From contig CAKKRE010000010.1 of NCBI GenBank assembly GCA_919902505.1, positions 1-64,000 on the forward strand: a stretch of DNA of 64,000 nt, given 5' to 3'. The notes beneath the pieces are model-generated. The model had not been told where the DNA came from, did no database searches, and worked only from the letters and a program-made list of their open reading frames with translations. This stretch comes from Nitrospiraceae bacterium. GTDB taxonomy: Bacteria; Nitrospirota; Nitrospiria; Nitrospirales; Nitrospiraceae. Positions 20,067-36,151 of the stretch are shown piece after piece. The position numbers and the translations under genes were made by a program. Every line of letters starts with the position of its first letter. The first letter of the stretch is position 1.

Positions 20067-20282
20067 ATGTCTGGTGAATTCAGAAAAGTGCTCGGCTCTT
20101 TCACTTTGGTTTACGCGACCGCAACAAGCCTGGCTCTGACTCTCTCGATACCACTGTGTGCCAGGGATCGAGGATTGAGGAGGGCATCAGTGGGTCATGC
20201 TTCTCTAAGTCTCTTCTCCTTCATCCCTCAAGCGTGTGGCCGCCGTGATGGGTCATTTTCCAGCAGAGGCCTGTATGCGTGA
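20067..20282 (+). CDS. Possible small membrane protein
   Basis: 71 residues, ATG with AGGAG just upstream and one hydrophobic stretch (SFTLVYATATSLALTLSIPL). It overlaps the start of the regulator gene by 8 bases. The C-terminal half looks random, so this may be chance or a short leader ORF. Confidence 0.25.
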   Translation: MSGEFRKVLGSFTLVYATATSLALTLSIPLCARDRGLRRASVGHASLSLFSFIPQACGRRDGSFSSRGLYA

Positions 20283-21930
20283 GAGCAACACGCAAGTTGG
20301 AAGGGTGTTGCGTTCACCGCGCGAGCAAGTCAATACCCCGAGTCAAGTCGCGCGCGCTGTTCGGAACGCGACAAATTTCAACCTCAGTAAGAACCTCCTT
20401 CAACAAAATCCTTGTAATCGTGACGCGGACGCCGGGGTAGCCGATTCACAGTGGCAGGTGGTGGTATGGGATTCCCAAACTGCTCGGTTGAGACTCATTG
20501 ACCGTGTGGTTTCAGCTTGTGGTGCTCACACGTATCGGGTCGAGGAGTATGGCGATATTGCAAAAGCGCCATGTTTCTCGTGTTGCGCTGCAGTGGTTGC
20601 GTTAGGACCCTACCAGACAGACGAGACTCTTGCCTCCAAAGTTATTGGCCGTATGAAACAGGCCGGATTGACGGTCATCGCCCACGAGCAAGGCGCTCAC
20701 GCTTGGTCCGTGGGCCTGCGTTGCCGACTCTTATTGGACGGCGCATCGTGCGTGCTAGACAGCGGAGAATCTGGATTTTCGCAAGAGCTGCGGCGAATCA
20801 TGACGGAAGTCATTGCACACAAAACGCGCGCATCGGCTGAAAAAGAGCGCATCCATGAGATCATGACGACCTTCGGTATTGTGGGAGCAAGCGACGCGAT
20901 AGAGGCAGCATTTCGACAGGCGTTGAGGGTCAGCTCTTTCAGTGATCTGGCTGTGTTGATCACGGGGGAGTCGGGGACAGGGAAAGAACTGATGGCGCGC
21001 GCCATTCACCAACTTGACCCGAAACGCAGCGCTGGTCCTTTCGTAGCGATCAACTGTGGCGCGATCAGTTCCGGTCTTGCTGAAAGCGAGCTATTCGGTC
21101 ACAGCAGGGGAGCGTTTACGGGGGCAGAGAGGGATCGAAAGGGCCTCATTCGCGCGGCGGACGGGGGCGTGCTCTTCCTGGATGAGATTGGAGAGCTTGG
21201 AAGTGACATCCAGGCAAAGCTACTCCGGGTGCTTCAAGATCGCCGCGTCATGAGCGTCGGCACGGACCACGACGTGGGTGTGGATGTCCGAGTGATCGCA
21301 GCCACCAATCGCAATTTGGAACGGATGATGGAACAGGGCCGGTTCAGAGAAGACCTGTTCCATCGACTGAACATGCTCTCCGTCCAACTCCCGCCGCTAC
21401 GGGAGAGGGCGACCGATCTCAAGCCATTGATCGATAACATTCTTGGGAAATATCGATCGGCTGTAGCATCGGAACCTTCTGCAGTTGACTGCGACTTCAT
21501 TGAGGCGCTGGCTCAATTGGAACTTCCTGGTAACGTGAGACAACTCGAGAACATTGTCCGGCGCGCCGTACTCAATAAAATAGACGACATGCCTTTAGGC
21601 CTGAGCGATCTTCCTCCGGAGATTTGGCGGCAACTCTGCGCGAAGAAACAGGAGCACAACGGACAAGCCGGCATACAGTGCCGCGCAAATCCGACGGTCA
21701 CTCCACATGCACCGTTATCGTCCGGAGAGTTTATCGCGACCCTCTTCACAAGGATGGATTCGAAGGAATGGAACCTCTCGCATGCCGTCGAGCATTGTGA
21801 GCGATTGCTGGTAGAAGCGGCATTGCAACGTGCGCAGGGGAATCACTCCCAAGCCGCACGAGTCTTAGGAGTGACTCCCCGCACGTTGTACAACAAACTG
21901 AAAAAACCCCATCGCGATAGTGATCCTTGA
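20275..21930 (+). CDS. Sigma-54-dependent enhancer-binding regulator
   Basis: About 551 residues from ATG 20275 (AGAGG upstream). Residues ~60-180 form a receiver-like domain (WQVVVWDSQTARLRLIDRVV...) that lacks the usual phosphoacceptor Asp pattern, so it is probably not a normal two-component receiver. The AAA+ core has Walker A GESGTGKE (~230), GAFTGA (~279) for sigma-54 contact, Walker B GGVLFLDEIGEL and the FREDLFHRL region. A Fis-type HTH (SQAARVLGVTPRTLYNKLKK) closes it. The gene is directly upstream of palindromic sites and a sigma-54 promoter, so it very likely switches on the 22-38 kb cluster. The activating signal is not apparent. Confidence 0.9.
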   Translation: MRESNTQVGRVLRSPREQVNTPSQVARAVRNATNFNLSKNLLQQNPCNRDADAGVADSQWQVVVWDSQTARLRLIDRVVSACGAHTYRVEEYGDIAKAPCFSCCAAVVALGPYQTDETLASKVIGRMKQAGLTVIAHEQGAHAWSVGLRCRLLLDGASCVLDSGESGFSQELRRIMTEVIAHKTRASAEKERIHEIMTTFGIVGASDAIEAAFRQALRVSSFSDLAVLITGESGTGKELMARAIHQLDPKRSAGPFVAINCGAISSGLAESELFGHSRGAFTGAERDRKGLIRAADGGVLFLDEIGELGSDIQAKLLRVLQDRRVMSVGTDHDVGVDVRVIAATNRNLERMMEQGRFREDLFHRLNMLSVQLPPLRERATDLKPLIDNILGKYRSAVASEPSAVDCDFIEALAQLELPGNVRQLENIVRRAVLNKIDDMPLGLSDLPPEIWRQLCAKKQEHNGQAGIQCRANPTVTPHAPLSSGEFIATLFTRMDSKEWNLSHAVEHCERLLVEAALQRAQGNHSQAARVLGVTPRTLYNKLKKPHRDSDP

Positions 21931-21940
21931 ATTCCGCATG

Positions 21941-21986
21941 ATCCGGAAACACTATTCCGGATCGGAGCCGATCCTTTCCGGAAAGG
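21941..21986. promoter_or_regulatory. Inverted repeats, candidate enhancer sites
   Basis: ATCCGGAA (21941-21948) and TTCCGGAT (21955-21962) form a perfect inverted repeat with a 6-base spacer; CCTTTCCGGAAAGG (21973-21986) is a 14-base palindrome with the same TTCCGGA core. They lie 105-150 bases upstream of the sigma-54 promoter, the usual distance for activator binding. The first could instead be an intrinsic hairpin, but no T-run follows. Confidence 0.6.
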
Positions 21987-22089
21987 TCTTTCTTCTCCTC
22001 CTTCCCTCCCGGCGCCTATTCAAGCGGTAAATCACCGCAAGCTGTCGGTTTTCCATATCAGTGATCACCGAACTGGAGTGTTACGGGCG

Positions 22090-22105
22090 TGGCACGTTCG
22101 CTGCA
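22090..22105 (+). promoter_or_regulatory. Sigma-54 promoter of the accessory cluster
   Basis: TGGCACG at 22090-22096, four bases, then CTGCA at 22101-22105. This differs from TGGCACG-N4-TTGCA at one base, and the GG-GC distance is exact. Transcription should start near 22116, just before the first gene of the cluster. Confidence 0.85.
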
Positions 22106-22125: not shown

Positions 22126-22380
22126 ATGAAGATTGTGACCACCGAACAATTCGCTTTTTTATTGAATCGGTTCGTGCGCTTTAAAGTGAGCGATGTCACC
22201 ATCCCCGGTCCACAAGAGGTCGTCAATGAACTCTATGGACGCGACATGGTGCAAGGGAAGGTCGTCGACATCACTGTGAGCGGGACGATGGAGCAAGCAT
22301 TCATCATCGTACAAGTGGAAGGAATGAATGCGCCCCTCATCCTACCGGCGGAAAAGGTGATTGGGATCACGGATCGGTGA
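22126..22380 (+). CDS. Small protein, first gene of sigma-54 cluster
   Basis: About 84 residues. Start candidates are ATG 22126 and GTG 22135; TGAGG at 22121-22125 is better spaced for the GTG (MTTEQFAFLLNRFVRF...). The sequence reads as a compact beta domain: FVRFKVSDVTI, GKVVDITVSG, AFIIVQVEG, APLILPAEKVIGI. It is reminiscent of a small barrel binding domain, but no family was recognised. It ends one base before another possible start, so it is tightly linked to the next gene. Confidence 0.65.
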   Translation: MKIVTTEQFAFLLNRFVRFKVSDVTIPGPQEVVNELYGRDMVQGKVVDITVSGTMEQAFIIVQVEGMNAPLILPAEKVIGITDR

Positions 22381-22416
22381 GTGACGTGGTGCATCAACTA
22401 TCGGCGGATCTCTCAC

Positions 22417-23532
22417 ATGAATCAAACAAGGAATGACACAAAAACGAGTGAAACGTGCCGGTGCAAGACCACAGAGGGTTTTGCTGAGGCCGGGAATCTC
22501 AGGTTGAATGGTGCGCACGTCTCGACCACGCAGAGGCACAGGTCGGCGCCGTTCACACAGCCGAAGATCTTTCTCGGTCATATTCCTAAAGGGTGGCGTG
22601 GAACGCAAAAGACGATTGAGCATGTACAGGCGCTGATTCGAGCCGGAGCGAAAGATTTTTATGTTCGTCAGAAGGCCATCGACATTCTGCTGGAGAAGCA
22701 AGTCAAGCCCAAGGACTACCTGGCCGAGATCAAAGCCCTCTTCGAATGGGTCCAGCAGCATGTCCGTTATACCAAGGATACCGTCCAGGTGGAGGTGCTC
22801 CATTCGGCGCGGCGTATGCTGGAGCTGCGGGCCGGCGATTGCGACGACATGGCCATTCTCCTGGGAGCAATGTTGGAGGCAATCGGTCACCCAGTGCGGC
22901 TGGTGCTCAGCGGGCCAAACCCACTCCGGCAGGACCTCTTCAGCCATATTTATTTGGAGGTGTTTCACAAAGGCCGCTGGATTCCGTTGGACGCCACGAT
23001 GCCTTACCCAATGGGCTGGGCGCCAAGCACAATGGTGAAAAAGATCATTGCTATCACAAGGAGGTCGAACATGATGGCCGAGGATATGGAACTGCAAGGC
23101 ATCGACGGAGTCGGGGCCGTACCGGACTGGCTAAGAGGACTGCTCCGGACGGTACGCACCGAGGCCGTACAGCCCAAAGACACGAGGATAAAGTCCCTAT
23201 GGGACCTACTAAGGCAACGGCAATTGCTGCGCCGAAGCCCATGGCTCACGACGGTATTGCGCCGTATCTGGAACCGTGGGCTGTCCGCTCGACCTCACCC
23301 GCGCACAGCGCGTCGGATAAAACAGAGGTTGCGTCGTTGGGGCATCTTGCCTCCGATTTCAGCGATTGCGGCGGCACATCGCCCGGCAGGCATGCGTCCT
23401 GTAACGCGAGCGCCGGTTCAGACGGTTCGACCTGTAACGCTCAAACCAGTCGCATCGCTACGGCCTGCGACTATGCAACCGGTGCGGCCTGTACAGATGA
23501 AGCCGGCAGGAACGAAAGCGGTAAGGAAATGA
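22417..23532 (+). CDS. Transglutaminase-like cysteine enzyme
   Basis: About 371 residues (ATG 22417; a GTG at 22381 is an alternative). The transglutaminase-like catalytic triad is visible: Cys142 in AGDCDDMAI, His177 in FSHIYLEVF, Asp192 in WIPLDATMP. Such folds act as proteases, amidases or cross-linkers. The C-terminal ~100 residues are Arg/Pro-rich with repeated RPV/KPV units, and the middle has MELQGIDGVG, a tag like those in the following proteins. There is no signal peptide. It overlaps the next gene by ATGA. It may process or cross-link the other cluster proteins; that is inference. Confidence 0.75.
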   Translation: MNQTRNDTKTSETCRCKTTEGFAEAGNLRLNGAHVSTTQRHRSAPFTQPKIFLGHIPKGWRGTQKTIEHVQALIRAGAKDFYVRQKAIDILLEKQVKPKDYLAEIKALFEWVQQHVRYTKDTVQVEVLHSARRMLELRAGDCDDMAILLGAMLEAIGHPVRLVLSGPNPLRQDLFSHIYLEVFHKGRWIPLDATMPYPMGWAPSTMVKKIIAITRRSNMMAEDMELQGIDGVGAVPDWLRGLLRTVRTEAVQPKDTRIKSLWDLLRQRQLLRRSPWLTTVLRRIWNRGLSARPHPRTARRIKQRLRRWGILPPISAIAAAHRPAGMRPVTRAPVQTVRPVTLKPVASLRPATMQPVRPVQMKPAGTKAVRK

Positions 23533-23894
23533 GCTGTCGATGCGAGAAATGTTCCGGTGAGGGTGGCGGTCATACATCGCTCGTGGGGCAACCCTTCGAC
23601 GCCATGCCAATGGAAAACATGCAGCAGGGGATGAGCCTCTACCATGCCTTCAATGGGTTTGAACCGTCTCAGGTCGTGAAAGTTCATCATCCCAGGGTAA
23701 TCCCGCCGGTGGTGGTGGAACTGGGCGAACTGGTGGGTCTGATGTATCGCTCCGACAAAGGACAACCGGGGCAACCGCGCACCTACATTCACCGGATGGA
23801 ACATCCGCCGCGACTGGTCAGCAACATCGAAGGGACACAACTCTATATCGTGGGAGGCAGTTACCAGGTTACTCCAAGAGGGATCGAGGGCTAG
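23529..23894 (+). CDS. Small Cys-rich N-terminus protein, sigma-54 cluster
   Basis: 121 residues, translationally coupled to the transglutaminase-like gene (ATGA overlap, AAGGA upstream). The N-terminus MSCRCEKCSGEGGG could bind a metal or be cross-linked. The remainder is predicted beta-rich and ends in VSNIEGTQLYIVGGSYQVTP. No family was recognised. Its coupling to the upstream gene suggests they work as a pair. Confidence 0.65.
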   Translation: MSCRCEKCSGEGGGHTSLVGQPFDAMPMENMQQGMSLYHAFNGFEPSQVVKVHHPRVIPPVVVELGELVGLMYRSDKGQPGQPRTYIHRMEHPPRLVSNIEGTQLYIVGGSYQVTPRGIEG

Positions 23895-23959: not shown

Positions 23960-24247
23960 ATGAAAAATGATCAACAGCTCGGGTTGGATGAGTTGATGAT
24001 CGTGAACCCCGGTTCATCAGGTGCGGAAGTCATGTTCTTGGGCGAAGACGGAACCTTGTATCAGGTGCAAGGACTGGGTGAGGAAGCGGTGCCTCATGGG
24101 CCAGGACAGTTTGTCCTGGGTGAAGACGGCACGTTGTATCAGACGCAGGGCTTGAGTTCGAACGGCGTGGGTGAAGCGGAGGCTCAGGAGCTTGGCCGCT
24201 ACTTCCTCGGAGAGGACGGGACGCTTTATGAAGTCGTGACTAAATGA
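23960..24247 (+). CDS. Small protein with three FLGEDGTLYQVQG repeats
   Basis: 95 residues carrying three copies of the motif (F/V)LGEDGTLY(Q/E) at about residues 26-38, 51-64 and 81-92, each ending near (V/T)QGL except the last. Between them are short acidic, Gly-rich linkers. The same LYQ(Y)VQG motif recurs in the protein at 24997. No enzyme motif and no signal peptide. It looks like a repeat-built structural or tag protein. Confidence 0.65.
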   Translation: MKNDQQLGLDELMIVNPGSSGAEVMFLGEDGTLYQVQGLGEEAVPHGPGQFVLGEDGTLYQTQGLSSNGVGEAEAQELGRYFLGEDGTLYEVVTK

Positions 24248-24315
24248 AGCAATGGTGGGAGCGTTGGTGAATTGTTTGTAGCACGGTAACTGCAAATTCA
24301 AAAGAGGAGGTTGTC

Positions 24316-24969
24316 ATGGCAAAAGTGCAAGGTATGAAAGAAAAACTTCATTCCCCTCTCTTCGATGCGTTCTTCGTAAAGGACGAAGAAAAGGCCGTAG
24401 GAGTCAAGAAAACGTTCATAGACTTTATGACAGATCCACGGGTGATTCGCTTCTTTGTGGACGTCCAGAATAAAACTAAGTTGGAAACCAACTTACAAGC
24501 AGCCGGGGTACTACCCAGCCTCAACACCTTCGAGGCACGGGCGCTGCGAGTGGTGGTCTCTAGTCTCCACCGTTTTGACCCTACAAGGGGGACTAAATCT
24601 GAAATTAAAGCCGAGCGTAACGAAGCCGAGATTTTAGCTGATCTTATCTACAACTCAGTAACCTCTCTGATTGTGGGCGAAAAAATCATGATCGAGATGC
24701 CCACCTTTTGGTTTCCATCCGGTGCGGGCGTAAGTCCGGGCTTTCTGACCGTTTCCAACCACGGTGAACCTGATCCGACCGCGACATTCCGTTTCGCCGA
24801 GCCTGTCTATATCGAGCCACAGCAGGCCTTCCGTGTAGAAATGGCGTTCCCGCAAGGGGTCCCAGGACAACAAGTAACGCCTCCAGATCCGAATAAGTTA
24901 GCGGGCGTGACGGGCCCGTTGCGTATTTGGGTCGTGCTGGATGGCTATCTGACCCGCGATGTCCAGTAA
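24316..24969 (+). CDS. Putative structural protein, sigma-54 cluster
   Basis: 217 residues with a strong AGGAGG site. The N-terminus is helical and charged (KVQGMKEKLHSPLFDAFF); from about residue 110 it is beta-rich: VGEKIMIEMPTFWFPSG, PTATFRFAEPVYIEPQQAFRV and a C-terminal PLRIWVVLDGYLTRDVQ. The last segment parallels LFIVLHGYKILGYG at the end of the 26122 protein. This pattern suggests a beta-sandwich structural protein like virion or shell subunits; no family match can be claimed. Confidence 0.6.
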   Translation: MAKVQGMKEKLHSPLFDAFFVKDEEKAVGVKKTFIDFMTDPRVIRFFVDVQNKTKLETNLQAAGVLPSLNTFEARALRVVVSSLHRFDPTRGTKSEIKAERNEAEILADLIYNSVTSLIVGEKIMIEMPTFWFPSGAGVSPGFLTVSNHGEPDPTATFRFAEPVYIEPQQAFRVEMAFPQGVPGQQVTPPDPNKLAGVTGPLRIWVVLDGYLTRDVQ

Positions 24970-24996
24970 CCGGTGGAAACCAGAAGGAGGAACACT

Positions 24997-26016
24997 ATGC
25001 AGTACCTAAGTGAAGATCAAGTTACTCAAATGATGGGCATCGGCTATCTCGGCGAAATGCGCCAAGGTCCGGACGGAAACCTCTATCAATATGTGCAGGG
25101 GGTGGATGGTCTGGGCAATCCCATCGGCGGCTTCTGGAGCAAATTCAAGCGTGGACTAAGGAAAGTTCATAGCTTGGCTCAACGAGGAGCGTCGTTTATC
25201 CCCGGCCCCTATGGAGCAGCAATAAGAGCTGGTCTCAAAATAGCGACCCCAATTCTGCAAAAAGCCGGCGTCGCTGGAAATGAGGGAATCGGTGCGCTCT
25301 ATGAGGCGCCCGACGGCAGCCTCTACCAGGTCCAGGGAATGGATGCGGATGAAGAACTTCGGGGCATTGGCGACGAGGCGATGACCCAGATGATGGGTGT
25401 CGGGTATCTCGGCGAAGTGCGTCAGGGCCCCGATGGGAATCTCTATCAATATGTACAAGGCGTGGATGGTCTGGGCAATCCCATCGGCGGCTTCTGGAGC
25501 AAACTCAAGCGTGGACTAAGGAAAGTTCATAGCTTGGCTCAACGAGGAGCGTCGTTTATCCCCGGCCCTTATGGAGCAGCGATAAGAGCTGGTCTCAAAA
25601 TAGCAACCCCAATTCTGCAAAAGGCCGGAGTCGCGGGTTACGAAGGGCTCGGCGCGCTCTACCAGGCGCCCGATGGCACGATGTACCAGCAGGTCCATGG
25701 ATTGAATGAAGGCGAAGAATTGCGAGGTCTGGCAGAGGACGAGGAATTGCGAGGTCTGGACGAAGATGAGGAGTTGCGTGGTCTCGATGAGGACGAAGAA
25801 CTCCGCGGCCTGGATGCGGAGGAGGAGCTACAGGGTTTTGCCGAGGATGATGAACTGCGTGGCGTTGGGGAAGACCAGGATATGCAAGGCATCGATGGCT
25901 ATGTGCGGCAGGACGGCATGAGCGGACTGGAAGCCTACGTGCCGCAGGAGCCACCGCAGACACGTTGGTACGTGGCACCAACCCAGGCGCCAGAGGTATG
26001 GAAATCATTATGGTAA
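24997..26016 (+). CDS. Duplicated amphipathic protein with acidic tail repeats
   Basis: 339 residues; the AGGAGG site fixes ATG 24997. Two 120-residue halves are near-identical. Each has GYLGE-RQGPDGNLYQYVQGVDGLGN, then GGFWSKLKRGLRKVHSLAQRG and a hydrophobic helix around SFIPGPYGAAIRAGLKIATP, and ends in an LYQ-type tag. After residue ~240 come seven 9-residue units of EELRGLDED type. A cationic amphipathic block followed by a hydrophobic one, neutralised by an acidic tail, is what a membrane-active or assembly protein might look like. No known family; no signal peptide. Confidence 0.65.
   Translation: MQYLSEDQVTQMMGIGYLGEMRQGPDGNLYQYVQGVDGLGNPIGGFWSKFKRGLRKVHSLAQRGASFIPGPYGAAIRAGLKIATPILQKAGVAGNEGIGALYEAPDGSLYQVQGMDADEELRGIGDEAMTQMMGVGYLGEVRQGPDGNLYQYVQGVDGLGNPIGGFWSKLKRGLRKVHSLAQRGASFIPGPYGAAIRAGLKIATPILQKAGVAGYEGLGALYQAPDGTMYQQVHGLNEGEELRGLAEDEELRGLDEDEELRGLDEDEELRGLDAEEELQGFAEDDELRGVGEDQDMQGIDGYVRQDGMSGLEAYVPQEPPQTRWYVAPTQAPEVWKSLW
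25021..25740 (+). repeat. 360-bp tandem duplication inside the 24997 gene
   Basis: Bases 25021-25380 and 25381-25740 are near-identical over most of their length, strongest from about 25100 to 25270 and 25460 to 25630. The 360-base period keeps the frame (120 residues). Identity at synonymous positions points to a recent duplication or gene conversion. Confidence 0.85.
25714..25902 (+). repeat. 27-bp coding repeats, acidic EELRGLDED
   Basis: Seven units of 27 bases encode variants of EELRGLDED: A, D and G substitutions accumulate toward the 3' end (EELQGFAED, DELRGVGED, QDMQGIDGY). The codons vary while the peptide is kept in the middle copies, which suggests selection on the peptide. Confidence 0.85.
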
Positions 26017-26121
26017 GCCGGTGACAAGATTTCCCATCACGTATCTCGGGTACGCGCTCCGCCGGTCTATCCTAAAACGAGATGCCTGGGATGGGGGGCG
26101 AGGGAGTAGGAGGTAATAACC

Positions 26122-26790
26122 ATGCGATTAGGACTGAGTCAAGATCAGCAACAGGTCCCCGCGCGTTCAGCACCGGACGTTATGCCGCCGCCGACCGCTG
26201 CGCCCACGACCAAAGAGATTCCCTACGACTATGTGGCCAAGTTCAAACTTCAAGGGAAACCCGGCAATCGTGTGCAGGATGTGATCAACATCAGCATCGA
26301 AGGCGCCTTTGTGGCTGTGGCCATTGGCTATAGTTTCATCCCGGCCAAGTTGCCGGTTCTGCCACCACCAGGTTCGATACTCTTGACATCGCCCCCGCCT
26401 ACTGGTGAAGGCGTGGGCTGGCTGTTGGCCAATGCCATTCTGCCTGTCGTGGAAGATCCACGCATGCTCGCGCAATGCTTGCTCGTGCGACTCTGCGGGA
26501 TCGATTTCAAATACAGCATCATCGATAGCGGGAGCGGCCGCGAGTTGCAGAATCAGCCGATCCACAACATCGCCGGGCTGGGTGAGGCAACCGGTGATCG
26601 GCCTTTCCGTCCCCTGGCGAAACCCATGCTGTTCATGCCCCGCTCGACTATCCGTGTCGAAGTTGAAGAAATCTCGGAAGGGCCGATTTATGGTTACGAG
26701 GACTCAGTGACCAAACAGCGTGTTGGCGCAGAACTGTTCATCGTGCTGCACGGCTATAAAATTCTTGGCTATGGGACGGCGCTATCATGA
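26122..26790 (+). CDS. Putative beta-sandwich structural protein
   Basis: 222 residues with AGGAGG upstream. A Pro/Thr-rich N-terminus (to ~30) is followed by beta strands: DYVAKFKLQGKPGNRVQDV, GAFVAVAIGYSFIP, the FKYSIIDSGSGRELQNQP turn, and FRPLAKPMLFMPRSTIRVEV. It ends with AELFIVLHGYKILGYG, like the 24316 protein. Capsid-like single-domain beta-sandwich subunits share this look, but the assignment is structural intuition only. It overlaps the next gene by ATGA. Confidence 0.6.
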   Translation: MRLGLSQDQQQVPARSAPDVMPPPTAAPTTKEIPYDYVAKFKLQGKPGNRVQDVINISIEGAFVAVAIGYSFIPAKLPVLPPPGSILLTSPPPTGEGVGWLLANAILPVVEDPRMLAQCLLVRLCGIDFKYSIIDSGSGRELQNQPIHNIAGLGEATGDRPFRPLAKPMLFMPRSTIRVEVEEISEGPIYGYEDSVTKQRVGAELFIVLHGYKILGYGTALS

Positions 26791-27299
26791 CCATGAACCA
26801 GGCGTGCGATGTCCATCGAGACACCGGTTATTCCAACGTCTGCCAGATTTGTAGCGTTCCGCTGGATGCCGGGTATTTCGATGTCGCCGGCATCAAAGCG
26901 GCACCGGGGAATGTGGGTGAAGAAGTCGAGGTCGCGCGCTACGAGCTGAACCCTCAGTATTGCGGCACGATGTTGTATTTCACGCAATACGCGGAAGAAC
27001 TTAACACAAAGAGACAAGTGCTCTCGAACACGCCCGGTTACGAATGGTTGATCCTCTGCAACAACCAGCCGCGGGCGCCCTACCTGCCCACAGACCTGAT
27101 CTTGAACCCTTGGGGCTACAACGCCCTTCCAATCTACCTGAGATTGGAAGAGGGCTGCACGTTGAGGTTCGTGGTCAGAAAGGTGACCCCTCCGGTAGGT
27201 GGGGGAGAGGTGAGGTTGAACTTATCTCAAGTAGGAGGCAGGCTGCTGGGCCGCACCTGGTACAACACCATCTATGGAGGAACGCCGAATCAGCGTTAA
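26787..27299 (+). CDS. Putative beta-rich structural protein, coupled
   Basis: 170 residues, coupled to the 26122 gene by ATGA. Strand-rich: YELNPQYCGTMLYFTQYAEE, GYEWLILCNNQPRAPYLP, LPIYLRLEEGCTLRFVVRK and a conserved-looking end GGRLLGRTWYN. Cys17 and Cys20 in NVCQIC may form a pair. With the previous gene it could form a two-subunit shell, the way some tailless viruses use two single jelly-roll proteins; this is a hypothesis. Confidence 0.55.
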   Translation: MTMNQACDVHRDTGYSNVCQICSVPLDAGYFDVAGIKAAPGNVGEEVEVARYELNPQYCGTMLYFTQYAEELNTKRQVLSNTPGYEWLILCNNQPRAPYLPTDLILNPWGYNALPIYLRLEEGCTLRFVVRKVTPPVGGGEVRLNLSQVGGRLLGRTWYNTIYGGTPNQR

Positions 27300-27442: not shown

Positions 27443-28666
27443 ATGTACATCTATAATCGCCAATATGCCACGACGAAAAGTGTCCCGCCAGAGAGGCGCA
27501 GCAGTAGCTTTACCGTTATCAATGGGCTATCGGCGCCACCGACCTTACATCCTCGCTGTAACAGTCTCCTGCTGAAGGTTCCGGGCGCCTATGAACAACT
27601 CGAAGAAGCGGTCATGAAGTGGATTGCGACTTGTGTCCAATCCAGGACCAAAGTTCGCGGAGTTCCTGTTCATCGGGAACGCAAGCTGGTCATCGGCAAT
27701 CCATCTTTGCTGGACATCTGGAATAAGGTTCTACGTTTTCGCGTGGGGCAGGAAGTGACGATTAAGGCCGAGTATGGCTGGCGGAAGGGCGGGGTCGAGT
27801 CCATTCGCTTCACAACAACCGCGTTGCCGCCGCCTCCCCCGAAGCCCAGTCCCCCACCGCCGCCCGTGACGCGGAGTGTCGGCCAATGGCGGGAATTAGC
27901 CGATCAGAAATTCATCCACTACCAGCGGCAGATACCAGGTCGTCTGACGGATGAGGACGCAAAGGAGCTCAATCGTCGGATTACAGCTTCTTACGCGAAG
28001 ATGTACCTCAGTCGTCCTTCCGTCTTCAAATGGGCTGGCATGGCAGCCTTCGCTTCGGCCGAAGTCGGGAGAGGGATGCAACAGGCTTGGCAACTCGGCT
28101 TCGGGGACTGGGGAATGAGTGCGGGGGGAACTCTGTTGGTCTGGGTCGGTGGATTGGTCAAAACAGGAGAGTCGGTTGGGCCGATGCTTGGCAAGAAACT
28201 CTTCTGGGCGCTCTCGGGCGGAAATCGTTTTGTCTGGTGGGACATCTTCTGGCAGCACCTGGCCTACCAGGAACAAGGAATTGCGGCCCTTGTGGCCGCA
28301 CACAAAGCCGGTGAGTTACCTCAGGCCAATCTACTGGCCTGGCAGCGAATTGATGCCGGCCATCAGAAAGGCGACGTGGCTCAGATTTGGCAAGGAAACA
28401 GCGAACTCTTGAGGTACGAACAGGAATTCGTGCTTCAGGCTCAGGTATACGACCGGAGCCGGGACATCTGGCCCGTGATTTCGGACGATGTCCCCTCTCC
28501 AATCCCCGGGCACGGCGTCAAATTCACCAGCTATGTTTCAGGCGGTGATATCGGCGACTTCAAGCATCGCTGGAAATGGATCGAGGAAAGCATGCTGCCA
28601 GCATGGAAGTCGCTCGAAACAAACGAGCCAGCAAAGGTTCGGTCGCTGCTACTCGCTCTAACGTGA
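27443..28666 (+). CDS. Cluster protein with MYIY start and Pro hinge
   Basis: 407 residues starting MYIYNRQYATT. Residues ~1-125 form one domain; a Pro-rich hinge (PPPPPKPSPPPPPVTRS, ~130-150) leads to a helical C-terminal domain. That domain has NRFVWWDIFWQHLAYQEQGIAA, WQRIDAG and IWQGNSELLRYEQEFVLQ. The C-terminal part resembles uncharacterised proteins I remember vaguely (QGN...LLRYEQ), but I cannot name the family. No signal peptide, so a secreted role would need another route. Confidence 0.6.
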   Translation: MYIYNRQYATTKSVPPERRSSSFTVINGLSAPPTLHPRCNSLLLKVPGAYEQLEEAVMKWIATCVQSRTKVRGVPVHRERKLVIGNPSLLDIWNKVLRFRVGQEVTIKAEYGWRKGGVESIRFTTTALPPPPPKPSPPPPPVTRSVGQWRELADQKFIHYQRQIPGRLTDEDAKELNRRITASYAKMYLSRPSVFKWAGMAAFASAEVGRGMQQAWQLGFGDWGMSAGGTLLVWVGGLVKTGESVGPMLGKKLFWALSGGNRFVWWDIFWQHLAYQEQGIAALVAAHKAGELPQANLLAWQRIDAGHQKGDVAQIWQGNSELLRYEQEFVLQAQVYDRSRDIWPVISDDVPSPIPGHGVKFTSYVSGGDIGDFKHRWKWIEESMLPAWKSLETNEPAKVRSLLLALT

Positions 28667-28727
28667 AATTCCGGAGGCGGCCCAATCTCATCCACCAAGG
28701 GTGCAAGTCCATAGCGGCTGGGCACAA

Positions 28728-29036
28728 ATGTCGAATAATACCGTGCAATTGTTCGGGCCTTGGACGCGCGGAGAGGGTCATGAGGACGATGCAGATCAAG
28801 ACACCGAATCCCTGCCAGCGGCAGCCCCTGGCGGACCAGCAGTGGGTGCTCCAGGCTCATCAGGATCATGGAACCTAGGAAAGCGCTTTGTCAAAGAGAA
28901 GTCGCTTCTGGAGCTATCCAAACGAGTCACCGATAGTCCATGGTATGTCGAAGAAGTAATCAACGCGCTTGGCCAACTTTCTCTGGGTTATTGCGAACGT
29001 GTTTCAACACAAAAACCCGAAAGGAGCTTGAGATGA
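28728..29036 (+). CDS. Small protein, VQLFGPWTRGEG start motif
   Basis: 102 residues from ATG 28728 (MSNNTVQLFGPWTRGEG...). The motif matches residues 20-31 of the 53-residue protein at 27274. A Pro/Ala/Gly linker (~35-55) leads to a helical end (KEKSLLELSKRVTDSPWYVEEV). The shared motif may be a docking or export signal. No ribosome site is clear, so translation may depend on coupling. Confidence 0.5.
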   Translation: MSNNTVQLFGPWTRGEGHEDDADQDTESLPAAAPGGPAVGAPGSSGSWNLGKRFVKEKSLLELSKRVTDSPWYVEEVINALGQLSLGYCERVSTQKPERSLR

Positions 29037-29294
29037 AGGAGAAAGGTAGGATCAAACGACCTTAAGCAACCGCTCAAGGAAGCGAGGCGAAAAGTGGGTG
29101 CTGGACTACTGACCCCTTAGCTTCTGATGTCCAATGGGACTGGAACCGGGGCTGGGATAGCGCATCGTGAATTTTCAGCGGAGCTCCGACCGGAAGAAAT
29201 GGGGGCAAAATGAATGTTGGACCGACCGGCTGACGAAAGAGCCCCTGTGGGGATCTAATTGATTGCTGTGAATCGAAGCGGAAGGGGGGCCAGC

Positions 29295-30023
29295 ATGTAC
29301 CTGAGAACAGCAGAAGGATTAGGGCAAGCCCCAATGCGATACGGCCCTTTTGCCGGAACACTGGGTGATAACACGCTCCCGGATGGAATTCGGGAGTTTC
29401 TGAATGAACTGCGCAACCACAAAGACTTAAAAAGACTGCTGTTGACCGTTACCTTTCACCCCAAGCCACTGCAAACCTGGCTAACATTTGGTCCAAGGAA
29501 ACAAGCAATTCTAGATTTGCTTTTAGTCAACAACATGCTTGAAGCACCTGTTGTTTTCTTTGATCACCTGAGGCGCATCAGCACCGACCTCCAGAAGAAA
29601 GATGCCGGCTTTAGGCAACAGATCGACGCCGAGTTGCAGCTTCGGAACGCGATGATCAAGGCTGCCGGAAAAGTCGGAATAGACCGTGACAAGATGAAAC
29701 CCTTCTTGCTCGAACCCTTGTTTACGCCAGAGGTAGAAGACTATTTCCTGCCTCCATTGGCCTTGAGTTTCGCGAATAAGATGTTGCCGCCGAGGCTGGT
29801 CCAACGGATCAAGAACAGCGCAATACCTGAGGCGCACCTTGTCGGGTTGGGAAGATTTCTCCGTAGGTACGGCGAGGTATTGCAAAGTAAGGATGCTGTG
29901 TTCAAACGAGTCGTAGAGCAGGAACGCCACAAGAGGCAACAAGTACAGCAGGAACAAAAAGAAAAGGCAAAACAAGCGGAAGAGGAACGAAAGCGAAAAG
30001 AGCAAAGGCGAAGACGAAAATAG
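29295..30023 (+). CDS. Cluster protein, paralogue A1 (MYLRTAEGLGQ)
   Basis: 242 residues; GGAAGGGGGG precedes ATG 29295. Its paralogue at 30919 shares LLLTVxxHPKP, the FLLEPLFTPEV/FLYDPLLLPMF block, MLPxxLxQxIxNS, EAHLxxLGxxLRR and SKDAVFKR-like residues. The C-terminus is a long Lys/Glu/Gln coil (RHKRQQVQQEQKEKAKQAEE...). Likely helical; no enzyme motif. Tandem paralogues separated by two small genes suggest local duplication. Confidence 0.65.
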   Translation: MYLRTAEGLGQAPMRYGPFAGTLGDNTLPDGIREFLNELRNHKDLKRLLLTVTFHPKPLQTWLTFGPRKQAILDLLLVNNMLEAPVVFFDHLRRISTDLQKKDAGFRQQIDAELQLRNAMIKAAGKVGIDRDKMKPFLLEPLFTPEVEDYFLPPLALSFANKMLPPRLVQRIKNSAIPEAHLVGLGRFLRRYGEVLQSKDAVFKRVVEQERHKRQQVQQEQKEKAKQAEEERKRKEQRRRRK

Positions 30024-30088
30024 CATAACGGGAGCTTGTCAGAGTGGAAGGGCCGGGAAGCGATTGCTCAAGCGAAGGAGTATCCGCC

Positions 30089-30427
30089 ATGTACATGCCC
30101 ACAAGTCTAGGACAACCCCAAGCTCAAACGGATTGCTCCGGGTGGGAAAGCGACCCGCAGAGTTTTGTCAGAGTGATTGCCAAACACCATATCCGCACCG
30201 AGCTAGGGCGGGCTCTGAGTCCTACGCGTGGGCCCTATAAAGTGACCGAGAAGACGTGGGGGGTGAGATTTCCCGACGACATCGTCGTGTATGTGCTCCT
30301 CGCCAAGGTGCCGGATTTTGTCGTCGCTGCCCGCTGGTACCCGAAGCCGGCGGGGCAATCACGTTTCTACACCTACTCCTGTATGAGCGACGGCCAGGTG
30401 GTTTTCACTGAGCGTGCGAAGCCGTAG
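30089..30427 (+). CDS. Small cluster protein (MYMPTSLGQ)
   Basis: 112 residues from ATG 30089, which has AAGGAG 8 bases upstream; a GTG/ATG at 30044 is less well supported. Beta-rich, with GVRFPDDIVVYVLLAKVPDFVVAARW and a final YSCMSDGQVVFTERA. It begins with the shared MYMxTxLGQ pattern. No family recognised. Confidence 0.6.
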   Translation: MYMPTSLGQPQAQTDCSGWESDPQSFVRVIAKHHIRTELGRALSPTRGPYKVTEKTWGVRFPDDIVVYVLLAKVPDFVVAARWYPKPAGQSRFYTYSCMSDGQVVFTERAKP

Positions 30428-30460
30428 ATAGGCCCAGAATCTTAGGCGGAGGACAAGGTC

Positions 30461-30835
30461 ATGTATCTTCAAACTGATTTGGGAGACGGAGTGTTCAAAC
30501 CCAGATCGAGATATAAGCAACCTCGGCTGTATCTCGTCAGTGTGCACTGGACTTTTGAAGTTCCATTCAGGAAAGACTTTGAGGCCTTTCGTCAGGAACT
30601 CAGCAAGACGATCAGGAAACTTGTGACGGCTGAGGCCGATAAGAAAGAAATCGACAGCCTCCTGCTCGAAGCTAAGCATGTGGTAACAGCGCTCAAGGAC
30701 GTGCATGGTCAGCTGCTGAAACGAAAGTCCCCCAGACTCAAAGAATCCGATCCCGTTGGGATTAATGCTACGATTTACTTCAAGAAAAATGATTACACGG
30801 ATGTCAGTGGGATTTCTGTGTATGACCGTAATTAA
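30461..30835 (+). CDS. Small cluster protein (MYLQTDLGDG)
   Basis: 124 residues; ribosome site GGCGGAGGA. The start MYLQTDLGDG again follows the cluster pattern. The body is alpha/beta with a central helix (AEADKKEIDSLLLEAKHVVTALKD) and a final beta segment (NATIYFKKNDYTD). Unknown function. Confidence 0.6.
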   Translation: MYLQTDLGDGVFKPRSRYKQPRLYLVSVHWTFEVPFRKDFEAFRQELSKTIRKLVTAEADKKEIDSLLLEAKHVVTALKDVHGQLLKRKSPRLKESDPVGINATIYFKKNDYTDVSGISVYDRN

Positions 30836-30918
30836 ACGTTGACCCGGCAATTAAGCGGGTGGGAACAGCAGTAGAACGAAGTTTTCTGTTGCTTAGTCGT
30901 CCAGCTCCAGGAGTCGTT

Positions 30919-31617
30919 GTGTACATCAATACAGGTGCAGAATTTGGACAGATTTCCACACCGCACAGTTTTGTTGCCGGCATGCTCGGTGAAGATGTCA
31001 ATTCAAAAAAAATAATCAATGACATTCTCAATCAAGTCCGCTTGCAGTCTCAAAGTTTCAAGAAACTCCTCTTGACTGTCGCCTTGCACCCAAAGCCCGA
31101 TGCCAGCGTTATTTGGGAGAAGCAGACGTTTCCATTTGGTAAAGAGACTCGATATCTCGTCGATGAGATCCTGATGTCGGAGCTATCAACGGCGTTCATC
31201 TTATCCGTGCTGAAGCGGTACAGCGTTGCCAGCTTCAGCCGGGAAATCAAAGATGGGGAGCATTTGCAAATTAGGATGGTGAACGCCACTCAGAATTTGT
31301 CGAAAACGTTGCTCCAGCCATTTTTATACGACCCATTATTACTACCGATGTTTGGCGGGCAACTGCCCTACAAGGAACTTTCCAGGTTAGCCCGACATTT
31401 CGCGCAACATATGTTGCCGGGGGATCTTGCCCAACAGATCATGAATAGCGATGCCTCCGAGGCGCACCTTGCCTATCTCGGGAGTTATCTTCGCAGGCAC
31501 GCCGAGGCGCTGGAAAAGAAGGATCCCCACTTCAAAAGGCTAGCAGCGATAGCACGCAAGTGGCAGCGAGAACTGGAACAAAGGAGAAAACAGCGGGGAA
31601 CAAAGAAAACCCCATGA
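30919..31617 (+). CDS. Cluster protein, paralogue A2
   Basis: About 232 residues. The GTG at 30919 has AGGAG 5 bases upstream and gives a start (MYINTGAEFGQ) matching the cluster pattern; a longer form from GTG 30859 exists but lacks a site. Paralogous to the 29295 protein as described there, and it also ends in a Lys/Arg/Glu-rich coil. A short upstream motif (GCTGACGAAAG) recurs before the next gene and before 29295. Confidence 0.65.
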   Translation: MYINTGAEFGQISTPHSFVAGMLGEDVNSKKIINDILNQVRLQSQSFKKLLLTVALHPKPDASVIWEKQTFPFGKETRYLVDEILMSELSTAFILSVLKRYSVASFSREIKDGEHLQIRMVNATQNLSKTLLQPFLYDPLLLPMFGGQLPYKELSRLARHFAQHMLPGDLAQQIMNSDASEAHLAYLGSYLRRHAEALEKKDPHFKRLAAIARKWQRELEQRRKQRGTKKTP

Positions 31618-31703
31618 TTCGGGTCAGAGTCAATTATGAACAGGAAAATGCGGAAATGGATTCCGATTAATGCTGGGCCGATTAGCTGACGAAAGTGAGC
31701 CGT

Positions 31704-33326
31704 ATGTATATTTATGATCGGAGATTGTTACGTTCTCCCGCTCAATCCAAGCAACAGCCCATCACCCCACTGCCTGTCCATGGCAACGCCTATTACCCAG
31801 ACCAAGTTGTGGGCGAATTCTTTGGACGCGGATGGACCGACCACGGGTACGCTTGGGTACATGAAGGGTTGGGGCAATCGATTACTGATGAACTGTCCAA
31901 GAAGCTCAAGCACCTTTCATTTTTGTCCCACTTTGTAGAAAGGAATGGCAAGGATGTATGGCTTAAGCCGAGTGTGATGGATCCCGGGATCTATGACGGA
32001 CCGAAAAGGTACAGGCTTCCCATCGGTGGCACGCTCCAAGGCTTCCTAGAGGGAGTTCTGATACGTAACAAGCAGTTCGATCACATTAAAGTCGCCCTGG
32101 TGGATCTGACGAAGGATATCTGCAAACCGGAATTTGCCGGATTCAATCACGAAGCGCCGGTCTCCGCCGCAAGCGTTCCTAAGATCGCAGCCATGCTGGC
32201 AGCCTATCAACTTCGTCACGATCTCCGGGCCCTGTTGAAAAAGCAGCATAAGGGGGCCAGAGATACCAAGGAGCTCTTTAAACTTGTGCGTCAGGACTGG
32301 GCCGATACCCAGCATGACCATGGAGGCAGGTCGGCGGTTTTCACGAGTGGCGTCTCGCTTCGTGGAAAGCTTGTCCTCGTGAATGGCAGTAAGGTCTCTA
32401 TCAGTGAGCCGAAGGCTCCGCGATTAGAGGACGTTTTCGCCGATGTAAAAGGGGTCCCAATTAAAATCAAGTTCAAGAGTACGGGGGAAAACAAGGCACG
32501 ACTGGAGATCATCATCGATGAATTCAACCGTACAAAGGAAAAAAAAGAGCTAAAGCTGGCAGAAAATGAACTGGCGAAAGCAAAAGACGAGTTAACGCGC
32601 AAGGCAGCACAACGAAAACTTGCGGAGGCTAAAACCAAACTTGCCGTGGCAATACGGACGAAGCGTCCAGAGGCAAGGCGAAAACTCGACGCGCTGGGCT
32701 TCTTGGAGCGAATGCGGGTGATGATCGGCGGTCTGACGCCCGCCTCAAATCATGCGACTTCCACGATCGTGCGCGACGTGGGCTTTCTTTACATCGCGTC
32801 GACACTGCTCCAGTCCGGACTGTACGACACCAATCGGAAGGGGGGACTCTGGCTCGGTGGTGACTATGGCAACATTGGCTGGCGGGTAGGCCTTAGCGGT
32901 GAAAAAGATTTCGCGACAGCAACCGCCGGATCTCTCGCGGCATTCCTGTCGCTTCTCGTACAGGACAAATTGGTGAGCCCATCGGCCGGTTCCGGCATGC
33001 GTCGGCTGATGCAAATAGAGCCCCTTAACCCGACGCATCCCACCACCCAAAGCATATTTGAGGTAGGTCTTTCGGCACACCGGCTGAAGAAGGTGCTCGC
33101 AAAAATCGGTTTCATTAAAAACGGTTTCAGCCACGAGTGTGCGTACATCGAGCGCGATGTCGTTTGCGGGAAGGACAAGAAATGGACACTGCCCCACCGT
33201 TATATCGCGGTGTGCCTCGGGGCAAAAAGTAAGCGTGAGCTGAAGCAGTTAATCGATGAACTCGACACATGCATTCTCGCCAACAACCGGACAACGCCTT
33301 GTGTCGAAGCATCGAGGCGTGCGTGA
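31704..33326 (+). CDS. Beta-lactamase/transpeptidase-fold protein
   Basis: 540 residues from ATG 31704 (MYIYDRRLLRS). Class A beta-lactamase/PBP-like motifs: Ser157-Val-Pro-Lys160 (SxxK), Ser348-Asn-His (SxN-like) and Lys467-Ile-Gly (KxG). Between the first two motifs lies an insertion of roughly 130 residues with a charged coiled coil (AENELAKAKDELTRKAAQRK). No signal peptide is seen although its likely substrate is periplasmic peptidoglycan. It may be a binding or processing domain rather than a resistance enzyme. The neighbouring M23 peptidase also points to peptidoglycan. Confidence 0.6.
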   Translation: MYIYDRRLLRSPAQSKQQPITPLPVHGNAYYPDQVVGEFFGRGWTDHGYAWVHEGLGQSITDELSKKLKHLSFLSHFVERNGKDVWLKPSVMDPGIYDGPKRYRLPIGGTLQGFLEGVLIRNKQFDHIKVALVDLTKDICKPEFAGFNHEAPVSAASVPKIAAMLAAYQLRHDLRALLKKQHKGARDTKELFKLVRQDWADTQHDHGGRSAVFTSGVSLRGKLVLVNGSKVSISEPKAPRLEDVFADVKGVPIKIKFKSTGENKARLEIIIDEFNRTKEKKELKLAENELAKAKDELTRKAAQRKLAEAKTKLAVAIRTKRPEARRKLDALGFLERMRVMIGGLTPASNHATSTIVRDVGFLYIASTLLQSGLYDTNRKGGLWLGGDYGNIGWRVGLSGEKDFATATAGSLAAFLSLLVQDKLVSPSAGSGMRRLMQIEPLNPTHPTTQSIFEVGLSAHRLKKVLAKIGFIKNGFSHECAYIERDVVCGKDKKWTLPHRYIAVCLGAKSKRELKQLIDELDTCILANNRTTPCVEASRRA

Positions 33327-33404: not shown

Positions 33405-33935
33405 ATGCCAACTATTTCTATCACCTCAAATGACGGCAAGCTCAACTCCGCATCTGCGGTTCTGGAAGTGAGTGCCACAAACCAGGAGTATAACCAACCA
33501 GTGTTGCGTATCAAACAAGCCGGTACCAGCGGAGGCGCGGCTTCGATCCGGATCGATGATCCGAATCCGGACATCGAGTTCGTCGAGACTGGCCTCACGG
33601 GTCCCGATCCCGGCGCCGGGAAGTTCGAGATTGCCGTTCAGGCGGACCAACTCCAGATCAATGGCCGCAACGCCGATGTTGGCCCTAACAAGGGCTTCGA
33701 CACCATTGTCGTATTTACCCGACCGGCGGCAGGTGGCAATATCGGAATCGGATTCCCTGAGGCCAAAGACTACAAAAAGTTTGGAGGAGGACAGGGTGTC
33801 ATCGTGATCGCGAATGCCTCTGTTGCCCCTTCCCCATCGAAGAAGATTGCCGACGTTGGGATTTTGTATGTCCAGGACGGGGCGCTGATGTATATGAGCT
33901 CGAATGGAAACGTGAAGGAGATCGCGCCTGCCTAG
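33405..33935 (+). CDS. Spike-like beta protein, copy 1
   Basis: 176 residues with AGGAGG upstream. Repeated short beta strands (MPTISITSNDGKLNSASAVLEV, PVLRIKQAGTSGGAASIRID, DPNPDIEFVETG, GGNIGIGFPEA...) end in YMSSNGNVKEIAPA. This is typical of trimeric spike or tail-fibre tip proteins. It is paralogous to the 36231 protein, with only scattered differences. The stop codon is the first three bases of an inverted-repeat element. Likely surface exposed; no signal peptide. Confidence 0.65.
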   Translation: MPTISITSNDGKLNSASAVLEVSATNQEYNQPVLRIKQAGTSGGAASIRIDDPNPDIEFVETGLTGPDPGAGKFEIAVQADQLQINGRNADVGPNKGFDTIVVFTRPAAGGNIGIGFPEAKDYKKFGGGQGVIVIANASVAPSPSKKIADVGILYVQDGALMYMSSNGNVKEIAPA

Positions 33936-34110
33936 CCCGGATTACTCATGAATACCTACTGCGGCGACCGATCCTCTCGCTCGGCGGAGCTTTTCTCGTT
34001 CGGTCTCCTCGATGGACCGCAAGTACGCCTGTGTCGCCCTCACTTGCGAGAGGCCCCGGCGGGCTTCGGTCTCAGCCGCCTCGCGACGGCATTCATGAAT
34101 AATCCGGGCT
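33933..34110. repeat. Dispersed 178-bp inverted-repeat element, copy 2
   Basis: Left end TAGCCCGGATTACTCATGA; right end (34091-34110) is its inverse with one difference. On the minus strand it carries a frame with IIHECRREAAETEARRG and SIEETEREKLRRARGS. The matching segment is absent after the paralogous spike gene at 36231, so the element was inserted into copy 1 after the duplication, or lost from copy 2. Confidence 0.85.
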
Positions 34111-34141
34111 TGCCCCGTAGCCTTCAGAAAGGAAAACGACA

Positions 34142-34540
34142 ATGAGCCGCAAAACAAAAGACGCTCGCCAAAAAGTATCGTCTCGTGCTCGACGATCTCC
34201 TCCCTTCATCTGGCCCCTGGGCAAAAGTCCAAAAACACCAGACGAGATGAATACGTCCTATGGTCCGCGTATCGACGCGGATCGCTGGGACTTCCAGGAC
34301 GGCATCGATCTGCCCGCTCCCGTCGGTACGCCGGTCCATGCGATGGCAAACGGCACGGTAGATCGCGCCGGGCCGGTGTCCGTCACAATTCCCCACAATA
34401 GATGTGCGATGAAGACATTTTGTCGAAGCTTGATTGGGCGACGCAGACTGAGAAGCGCTGGAGTTGGTACGACAGGAATCGCTTGCAGAGTTCGGGTATG
34501 CATCAACACGACAGAAGCCATGTGGAACTTGGCTGTTTGA
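34142..34540 (+). pseudogene. Truncated M23 peptidase copy
   Basis: The first ~77 codons are close to those of the M23 gene at 36795 (RKTKDARQK, MNTSYGPRIDADRWDF), ending near VDRAGP at ~34375. After this the frame reads unrelated sequence. The zinc ligand His of FHDGID is Gln here. The catalytic half is missing, so this is a broken copy, probably the left half of a segmental duplication. Confidence 0.7.
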
Positions 34541-34563
34541 AGTAGCTCACGGAGGTCAGTGTT

Positions 34564-35305
34564 GTGGCGCGATCTAAGGTCTTTATTGCTTCTTCGTCGG
34601 AAGGGCTGAACGTCGCAGAAAAAGTTCAGTCTTTGTTGAAACAACCAGCTGACGTGAGGTTGTGGGACCGTGTGGTTGACTTGACTGCCACTTACATTGA
34701 GTCCCTTGAGAAGGAAATGGCTCAGGCACAGAGGGTGCGCGTTGATTGCCGAGCGTGTCATCAAGCTAGGGACTAGAGACAAGCCTGACCCCGACAAAGT
34801 TGCCGAAAGCGATGCCATACGCACCTTCTGCAAAAGGGTGACGGGTGCATGGTGGCAGCGAATTCCAGTGAAAGATGTAAGTGCAGTCAGTTTCTTTCAG
34901 ATCAAGCGCGACACGGTCTTCAATTCTCTTTCTCTGTCAGGCAGCTCATATGACAAGACCGGAGCTCTGGTGGGTTACTGGGAAAGCATCATGGCACGCA
35001 TCTATGCGGAGAAAAACAAGGTCCTCTACTCTTGGAAGGGCTGGCATACTCAAGATGGCATGACACACATCTCTTTCCATGGTTTCGGCGAGATGGATTT
35101 CGAGGGAGAAGCTGATGCCAAATCCTTGACCCGTGGTCGTGGGAGGTTTTGGAAAGTCGATGAGGCGAATCCGGCCAAGACTATCAACACGCCGATGCAA
35201 CTCCGTCGAATTACTGACAAAACTGCAGTCTCCACGATGACATCAGGGACGGAAAAGAAGGTACGGGTGCTCATTCTTCATACACTCGCACTCGCAGAAA
35301 GGTGA
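34564..35305 (+). pseudogene. Broken TIR-like nucleotide-sensing gene
   Basis: A GTG start with GGAGG upstream gives VFIASSSEGLNVAEKVQSLL and YIESLEKEMAQA, the start of a PF10137-type TIR-like domain (CAP12-like). The frame then fails at 34776. In the +1 frame from about 34735 the protein resumes with ALIAERVIKLGTRDKPDPDK and continues to 35305 with a C-terminal domain (WWQRIPVKDVSAVSFFQI, YSWKGWH, FHGFGEMDF). The middle of the TIR domain is missing, so an internal deletion plus frameshift is likely. Intact relatives are anti-phage-type effectors. Low-level certainty on family. Confidence 0.5.
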
Positions 35306-35395
35306 GGCGGAGTTTCGAGAGATCGCTCGTCACGATTCAATAACTGGTACATCCCGTTCCAACAGATCTACGACATCGCCACATGAGGTCTTTGC

Positions 35396-36151
35396 ATGAC
35401 AGTGTTTGTGTCCTACGCCCGTGAACAGCAATCCATCGCTGAGGAAATTAGTCTAGCTTTGTCCGGCCGTGGTCATGATGTCTTTTTGGATCGCTCCACC
35501 CTCGAGCCTGGGCGGGAATATGGGGCGACAATTCAGAAGAACGTCGAAACGTGTGATCTTTTTGTTTTTCTCATTTCCCCGGAGGCTTTAGGAGACGGAA
35601 GCTACGCGCGTACAGAGCTAGGCTTCGCGAAGAAGAGGTGGAAGAACCCCTCTGGGAAAATTCTCCCGGTGATGGTCAGACCGACACTGGATTCGAGGAT
35701 CGACGCATACTTGCGTGCCGTAACGATTCTCTACCCTCAAGGAAATGTAGCGGCAGAAGTCGCTGCCAGAGCAACCGCATTGCTAGAGCATACGGACGAG
35801 CCATTGAATGTTCCGCCTAGCCCAGAGCTTCAGAGGGAACGTATCGCAAGTTACAAAGAATTGTGGAGACTCACCAAGCTGCTACCTAAATGGCCACGGT
35901 CCAAAGATGTCACGTACGAAGACTTCGGCAAGCTCAGCCAGCTTCTCCGCGATTGGTATTTTAACGAGGGCGGGGGCATATTCCTGTCGCGAACTGCACA
36001 TACCGCTTATGCGGCATTGCAGGACTCTCTGACGGCGATCCTTGTCGAACAGCCTTCTGGAGGTATTTCTGAGGAGCATTACGAAGCGGTGCGGGTCTTA
36101 TGCAGTACGCTTCGGAGCGGATTAGCTCACGATGTGGGTTCACGGCAGTAA
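35396..36151 (+). CDS. TIR-domain protein
   Basis: 251 residues, TGAGG before the ATG. TIR motifs: VFVSYAREQQSIAEEI at the N-terminus, FLDRSTLEPG, and SYARTELGFAKKRW with Glu74 at the position of the catalytic NADase glutamate. Residues ~135-245 form a C-terminal helical domain (YKELWRLTKLLP, LSQLLRDWYFNEGGGIFLSRT) often seen after TIR in bacterial proteins I recall. TIR enzymes degrade NAD or make cyclic signals in defence. It lies between two copies of the spike/M23 segment, so it may be a later passenger. Confidence 0.8.
   Translation: MTVFVSYAREQQSIAEEISLALSGRGHDVFLDRSTLEPGREYGATIQKNVETCDLFVFLISPEALGDGSYARTELGFAKKRWKNPSGKILPVMVRPTLDSRIDAYLRAVTILYPQGNVAAEVAARATALLEHTDEPLNVPPSPELQRERIASYKELWRLTKLLPKWPRSKDVTYEDFGKLSQLLRDWYFNEGGGIFLSRTAHTAYAALQDSLTAILVEQPSGGISEEHYEAVRVLCSTLRSGLAHDVGSRQ

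Follow-up and report, generated by a model that had tools for sequence, protein, structure and literature searches.

A probable sigma-54 switch at the head of an inserted gene island in a Nitrospiraceae genome

Gene content of the deoC-deoB island

The window analyzed here, i.e., the whole stretch of 64,000 nucleotides, comprises bases 1–64000 of contig 10 of a Nitrospiraceae genome (4.24 Mb, 100% complete). It contains an island flanked by the housekeeping genes alaS, deoC, deoB, and dnaK, named from their translations. The end of deoC (19375) and the start of deoB (39750) leave a gap of 20.4 kb, and 25 further genomes of the genus have the two genes at most ~110 bases apart. Since the two genes are nearly adjacent in those genomes, we regard the sigma-54 unit described below as the head of an inserted 20-kb island. 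In another genome of the genus (G012, contig 189), deoC and deoB are separated by a different stretch of 2.9 kb; insertion at this site may thus be recurrent. The island encodes a transglutaminase-like protein, core proteins that fall into no known family, variable cargo carrying an M-Y tag, and a peptidase of the M23 type, and related loci bear the label Nitrospira sp. The following features were distinguished:

20236–21930, + strand: gene of a sigma-54 activator (bacterial enhancer-binding protein, bEBP), starting at GTG 20236 or ATG 20248 (Pfam, orthologues)
20446–20874, + strand: receiver-like N-terminal domain of the activator (pseudo-receiver), without the phosphoacceptor Asp and the conserved Lys (Pfam, profiles, AF2)
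21109–21126, + strand: sigma-54-contacting GAFTGA loop within the AAA+ domain (sequence; invariant in five orthologues)
21790–21906, + strand: Fis-type helix-turn-helix (HTH), putatively DNA-binding (Pfam HTH_8, 6.6e-13)
21940–21963, no strand: upstream site 1, GATCCGGAA-N6-TTCCGGATC, with the conserved core GGAA-N6-TTCC (repeat search, alignment)
21973–21986, no strand: upstream site 2, perfect palindrome CCTTTCCGGAAAGG (repeat search, genome count, alignment)
22090–22105, + strand: sigma-54 (-24/-12) promoter TGGCACG-TTCG-CTGCA (pattern search, conservation, shuffles, consensus scoring)
22135–22380, + strand: first operon gene, 81 aa, GTG start with a GAGG Shine-Dalgarno-like sequence upstream, no assigned family (alignment)
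22381–23532, + strand: transglutaminase-like protein (Pfam Transglut_core, 2.6e-13; conserved in Nitrospira and Methylococcales)
23529–23894, + strand: 121-aa core protein, no assigned family (same-order homologues in loci L030, L033, and L036)
23960–27299, + strand: five core genes, starting at 23960, 24316, 24973, 26122, and 26787 (conserved in two phyla)
27443–33326, + strand: variable cargo genes at 27443, 29295, 30089, 30461, 30919, and 31704, products starting with M-Y-[ILVMF] (translations)
33405–38363, + strand: 3' module with two copies of the p33405 family, truncated and full M23 peptidase genes, and a TIR-domain gene

The product of the first gene is 74–77% identical in the relatives compared below, where a 1-nt indel breaks the frame just upstream, which makes GTG 22135 the most likely start. 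The five core genes between 23960 and 27299 found no family in Pfam, PHROG, or NCBIfam, three core proteins run as profiles found no PDB relative, and AF2 modeled core protein p24316 at a pLDDT of 35, too low for use. We also observed that LYQ-V-QGL and GPDGNLYQ motifs are repeated in 23960–24247 and 24973–26016, and that the 24973 product has two basic, amphipathic-looking stretches (GFWSKLKRGLRKVHSLAQRG...).

Proteins of the variable segment nearly all start with M-Y-[ILVMF], in the window as in seven further loci (L026, 11370–16504; L028, 12313–16293; L030, 10630–14155; L036, L037, L046, and L047), in contrast to the core proteins, which do not. This start is often trailed by a GLGQ-like stretch and precedes unrelated enzyme domains; the domains detected in the cargo, some of them below the Pfam cut-off, are Amidase_2, M35-like, OmpA, Beta-lactamase2, DUF2515, C39-like, and peptidoglycan-binding ones. 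M-Y-[ILVMF] has the appearance of a common N-terminal tag for sorting or packaging. Sigma-54 control of functions related to the cell exterior is an established theme (PMC3162934), with which cargo presumed to act on the cell wall would agree. In the 3' module, p33405 and the M23 peptidase gene are duplicated with one M23 copy truncated, in the window (33405–38363) as well as in L028 (16325–19590), and the TIR-domain protein (35396–36151) gave weak matches to TIR models of defense systems.

A phage origin of the operon was considered and rejected: the operon yielded zero PHROG matches, two core proteins had no relatives in IMG/VR, and one had none in a phage collection. For the transglutaminase, two remote relatives were found among viral contigs. 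Our literature search, mainly of freely readable papers, did not find the gene cluster described.

The predicted sigma-54 promoter and its upstream palindromes

As for the promoter, TGGCACGTTCGCTGCA at 22090–22105 fits GG-N10-GC within a TGGCAC/TTGC context and matches 11 of the 13 specified positions; it departs from the consensus in the -12 element, which reads CTGC instead of TTGC, and in the G that precedes TGG. The pattern TGGCACGNNNNYTGCW (TGGCACG-N4-CTGCA) was found once in the window against 0.04 occurrences expected, and shuffling the 300 bases ahead of the first gene yields an equally high score in 0.2% of cases. Among the GG-N10-GC sites on both strands of the window, only one other, on the opposite strand at 41028, scores 11/13. 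The predicted transcription start lies at ~22116. The same genome encodes sigma-54 (PF04552 match of 191.8 bits, cut-off 22.8). A second sigma-54 site at 20010, suggested in the original prediction as a possible promoter of the activator gene itself, had to be abandoned: its 9/13 matches correspond to chance level, the same score is reached by ~50 GG-N10-GC sites on the two strands of the window, and the site is absent upstream of the activator orthologues.

Both palindromes are located 104–150 bases upstream of the promoter. Site 1 is a 9-bp inverted repeat with arms at 21940–21948 and 21955–21963, separated by a 6-nt gap (ACACTA). Direct reading and the repeat search agree on the positions, and all elements were found where they had originally been placed. 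The heptamer TTCCGGA occurs 12 times in the window, no more than the 12.5 expected; thus, the bare word is weak evidence, and it is the arrangement that counts. Within the window, a 14-nt perfect palindrome at most 60 bases from a separate 9-bp inverted repeat occurs only here. The inner 12-mer of site 2, CTTTCCGGAAAG, has a single occurrence in the whole 4.24-Mb genome, and TTTCCGGAAA followed by a -24/-12-like site at matching distance was likewise found once in the genome by pattern search. The idea of a wider regulon was rejected, as the genome holds no other CTTTCCGGAAAG and no second combination of palindrome and promoter.

An activator with a pseudo-receiver

The activator gene product matches the Pfam families Sigma54_activat (1e-64), AAA_lid_14, and HTH_8, and both its Walker A (GESGTGKE) and Walker B (FLDEIGEL) motifs are intact. 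In NCBIfam, no equivalog reaches its cut-off for this protein. It is one of many such proteins, as the genome encodes two dozen or so sigma-54 activators besides that of the window (27 matches).

The statement that the N-terminus of the activator is not a normal receiver proved correct, in that a receiver-like fold is accompanied by no receiver sequence match. Pfam recognizes no receiver in the N-terminal 160 residues, and comparing their profile with those of four genuine receivers encoded in this genome gave no match either. AF2 modeling gave a beta-alpha, receiver-like fold with a mean pLDDT of 71, obtained in one of five models (pLDDT of the others, 44–52) from an input of five close sequences. 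The best VIA-align matches of this model include the receivers of NtrC1, DctD, and NtrX (Z about 10.4–11.2), and the Foldseek list includes the FleQ domain of FlrA (among the top matches) and the CikA pseudo-receiver. Strand 3 ends in VVALG and strand 5 in VLDS, from which it follows that the phosphoacceptor Asp and the conserved Lys are missing; at the positions given by the model, both are absent in all five orthologues. The protein therefore does not possess the receiver with Asp and Lys of an NtrC-family response regulator, and a receiver-like domain devoid of phosphorylation residues suggests that aspartate phosphorylation is not what switches the activator. Five cysteines (C60, C95, C116, C117, and C163) are invariant. 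Redox-controlled pseudo-receivers exist (PMC12632262); a redox role for these cysteines is speculation on our part.

Conservation across genera

Conservation across genera is the strongest evidence for the putative switch elements. A search with the activator N-terminus against 175 genomes of the family returned four good orthologues (G100, G131, G133, and G136), all from another genus and 67–68% identical to the activator of the window. When the end of the activator gene, the intergenic region, and the first gene were aligned for the window and these four relatives, GGAA-N6-TTCC, the palindrome, and the promoter were present in 5/5 genomes. The spacing between the two upstream sites shows no insertion or deletion in the five genomes. 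Invariant columns make up 13/14 of the palindrome, 15/24 of site 1, and 13/18 of the promoter, against 25/86 of the spacer, in which the relatives are only 41–44% identical to the window. The distance from the start of the palindrome to the promoter is kept at 114–117 bases, whereas that from the activator stop codon to the palindromes varies. The same palindrome and the same promoter recur in L033, another Nitrospira locus, whose contig does not reach back far enough to include the activator. Taken together, these are dyad-symmetric sites at a distance typical of bEBPs (about 80–200 bases upstream) that are conserved along with the activator.

The alignment also bears on the possibility that the palindromes serve the activator gene as a rho-independent terminator, leaving the promoter as the sole regulatory element. 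The palindromes begin 10 bases past the activator stop codon, the RNA hairpin of site 1 is stable in the window, and a T-rich stretch follows site 2. Yet, a terminator scan finds none at the palindromes, and the relatives lose the outer pairs of site 1, their folds being no better than those of shuffled sequences (z of -0.07, 1.43, and 0.36). Moreover, what is kept is the sequence itself, even CCGG, the loop that site 2 would form, and the distance that varies is the one to the activator stop, not the one to the promoter. We consider a terminator quite unlikely for these reasons.

A methanotroph version of the cluster

A scan for core protein p24316 across the species genomes of GTDB revealed the cluster in Methylomonas methanica NCIMB 11130 and in two MAGs, one of Methylococcaceae and one of Methylotetracoccus (64–72% identity), and a search of the Methylomonas family added two further genomes. 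The cluster is sparse, being present in 4/201 genomes in the Methylomonas family search, in 2/369 genomes sampled from the Methylomonas class (a broken core in one of them), and in 2/296 sampled genomes of the phylum of the window. A core conserved between Nitrospira and gammaproteobacterial methanotrophs (p24316, 64–88% identity) and sparse in both points to horizontal transfer across phyla.

In four of the five methanotroph loci, a -24/-12 site scoring 11/13 is positioned 79–83 bases before the transglutaminase gene; in the Methylotetracoccus locus (L038), no clear promoter was found, though upstream repeats are present. Upstream of this site, one to three TCATAA-N3-TTATGA-type repeats take the place of TTCCGGAA, and the four loci that could be read that far (L036, L037, L046, and L047) encode a PAS-type sigma-54 activator at their 3' end. 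It follows that sigma-54 control probably recurs in the second phylum, with another activator and other sites. A degenerate stand-alone receiver protein is encoded beside the PAS-type activator in L036 (16518–16871) and L037 (16393–16767); no sequence relation was found between it and the pseudo-receiver of the window.

These loci weigh on two further explanations. The promoter match might be fortuitous and the operon driven by another type of promoter, as could be argued from the equal-scoring site at 41028, i.e., two such sites in 64 kb on both strands, and from L038, which has no clear site. However, the match occupies the right position before the operon, is conserved across genera, and recurs in the second phylum, and no good sigma-70 site was found before the operon, which makes coincidence highly improbable. 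Alternatively, the promoter may depend on sigma-54 with the palindromes being bound by a different regulator, either another activator or a repressor. The number of sigma-54 activators in the genome speaks for such an arrangement, and proximity is no proof of binding. Against it, the palindrome and this particular activator gene co-occur in 5/5 genomes readable for both, and the methanotroph type, which has neither, possesses another activator together with another upstream motif. A different regulator is thus improbable, if somewhat less so than a terminator; proximity and co-conservation suggest that the palindromes are bound by this activator and not by another one of the genome.

Proposed mechanism and relation to known systems

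We consider it very probable, judging from the DNA alone, that the locus holds a dedicated sigma-54 switch, in which the encoded activator, the paired palindromes, and the promoter drive the operon. The claim of the original prediction that the three form one unit is supported by the conservation across genera and backed by the sigma-54-contact motifs of the activator, the sigma-54 gene, and the sigma-54-type promoters of the second phylum. According to the proposed mechanism, the activator (20236–21930) would bind the palindromes at 21940–21986 through its Fis-type HTH and oligomerize, and the bound protein would loop across the ~105-base spacer. The GAFTGA loop of the AAA+ domain, together with ATP hydrolysis, would then open the sigma-54 RNA polymerase complex at 22090–22105, and transcription would proceed from ~22116 through the operon, headed by the 81-aa gene and the transglutaminase-like gene. 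Activity would be set by some signal other than phosphorylation (a ligand, a partner protein, or redox state) or by the level of the activator itself.

Similar to regulators of the NtrC/NtrC1/DctD type, the activator combines a receiver-like fold, an AAA+ domain with GAFTGA, and a Fis HTH, and is associated with paired inverted repeats lying ahead of a -24/-12 promoter. In contrast to them, it lacks the phosphoacceptor Asp, the conserved Lys, and a detectable receiver sequence, and there is no sign of a partner kinase. It shares with FleQ/FlrA a degenerate receiver on a sigma-54 AAA+ activator, yet it has no Pfam FleQ match and is tied to a local island operon, not to flagella. Pseudo-receivers have been reviewed (PMC12632262), and this activator adds a further case to the question of switching without phosphorylation discussed there. 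The methanotroph PAS-type activator likewise accompanies this operon and a sigma-54-type promoter, but differs from that of the window in its PAS N-terminus, the position of its gene at the 3' end, the TCATAA-N3-TTATGA motif, and, in at least L036 and L037, the separate degenerate receiver protein. A parallel in organization is offered by Desulfovibrio vulgaris, which has many sporadically distributed sigma-54 regulons (PMC4641369). In its local regulons, as in the window, one activator adjoins one sigma-54 operon and inverted-repeat sites lie about 100 bases or more upstream; the motifs and the target genes are other ones (PMC4641369).

The switch is of a textbook kind; the system apparently placed under it is undescribed. 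We tentatively suggest that it could be a horizontally moving delivery or extracellular-assembly system of Nitrospira and methanotrophs, with a conserved core and interchangeable M-Y-[ILVMF]-tagged cargo, in which sigma-54 control was kept and the activator and motif were exchanged, a possibility to which we give slightly less than an even chance. The switch offers a handle on a cross-phylum gene cluster without known function, and sigma-54 promoters kept beside differing activators and enhancer motifs represent a natural experiment in regulatory rewiring. The methanotroph version is carried by a named strain, Methylomonas methanica NCIMB 11130, which makes the prediction testable.
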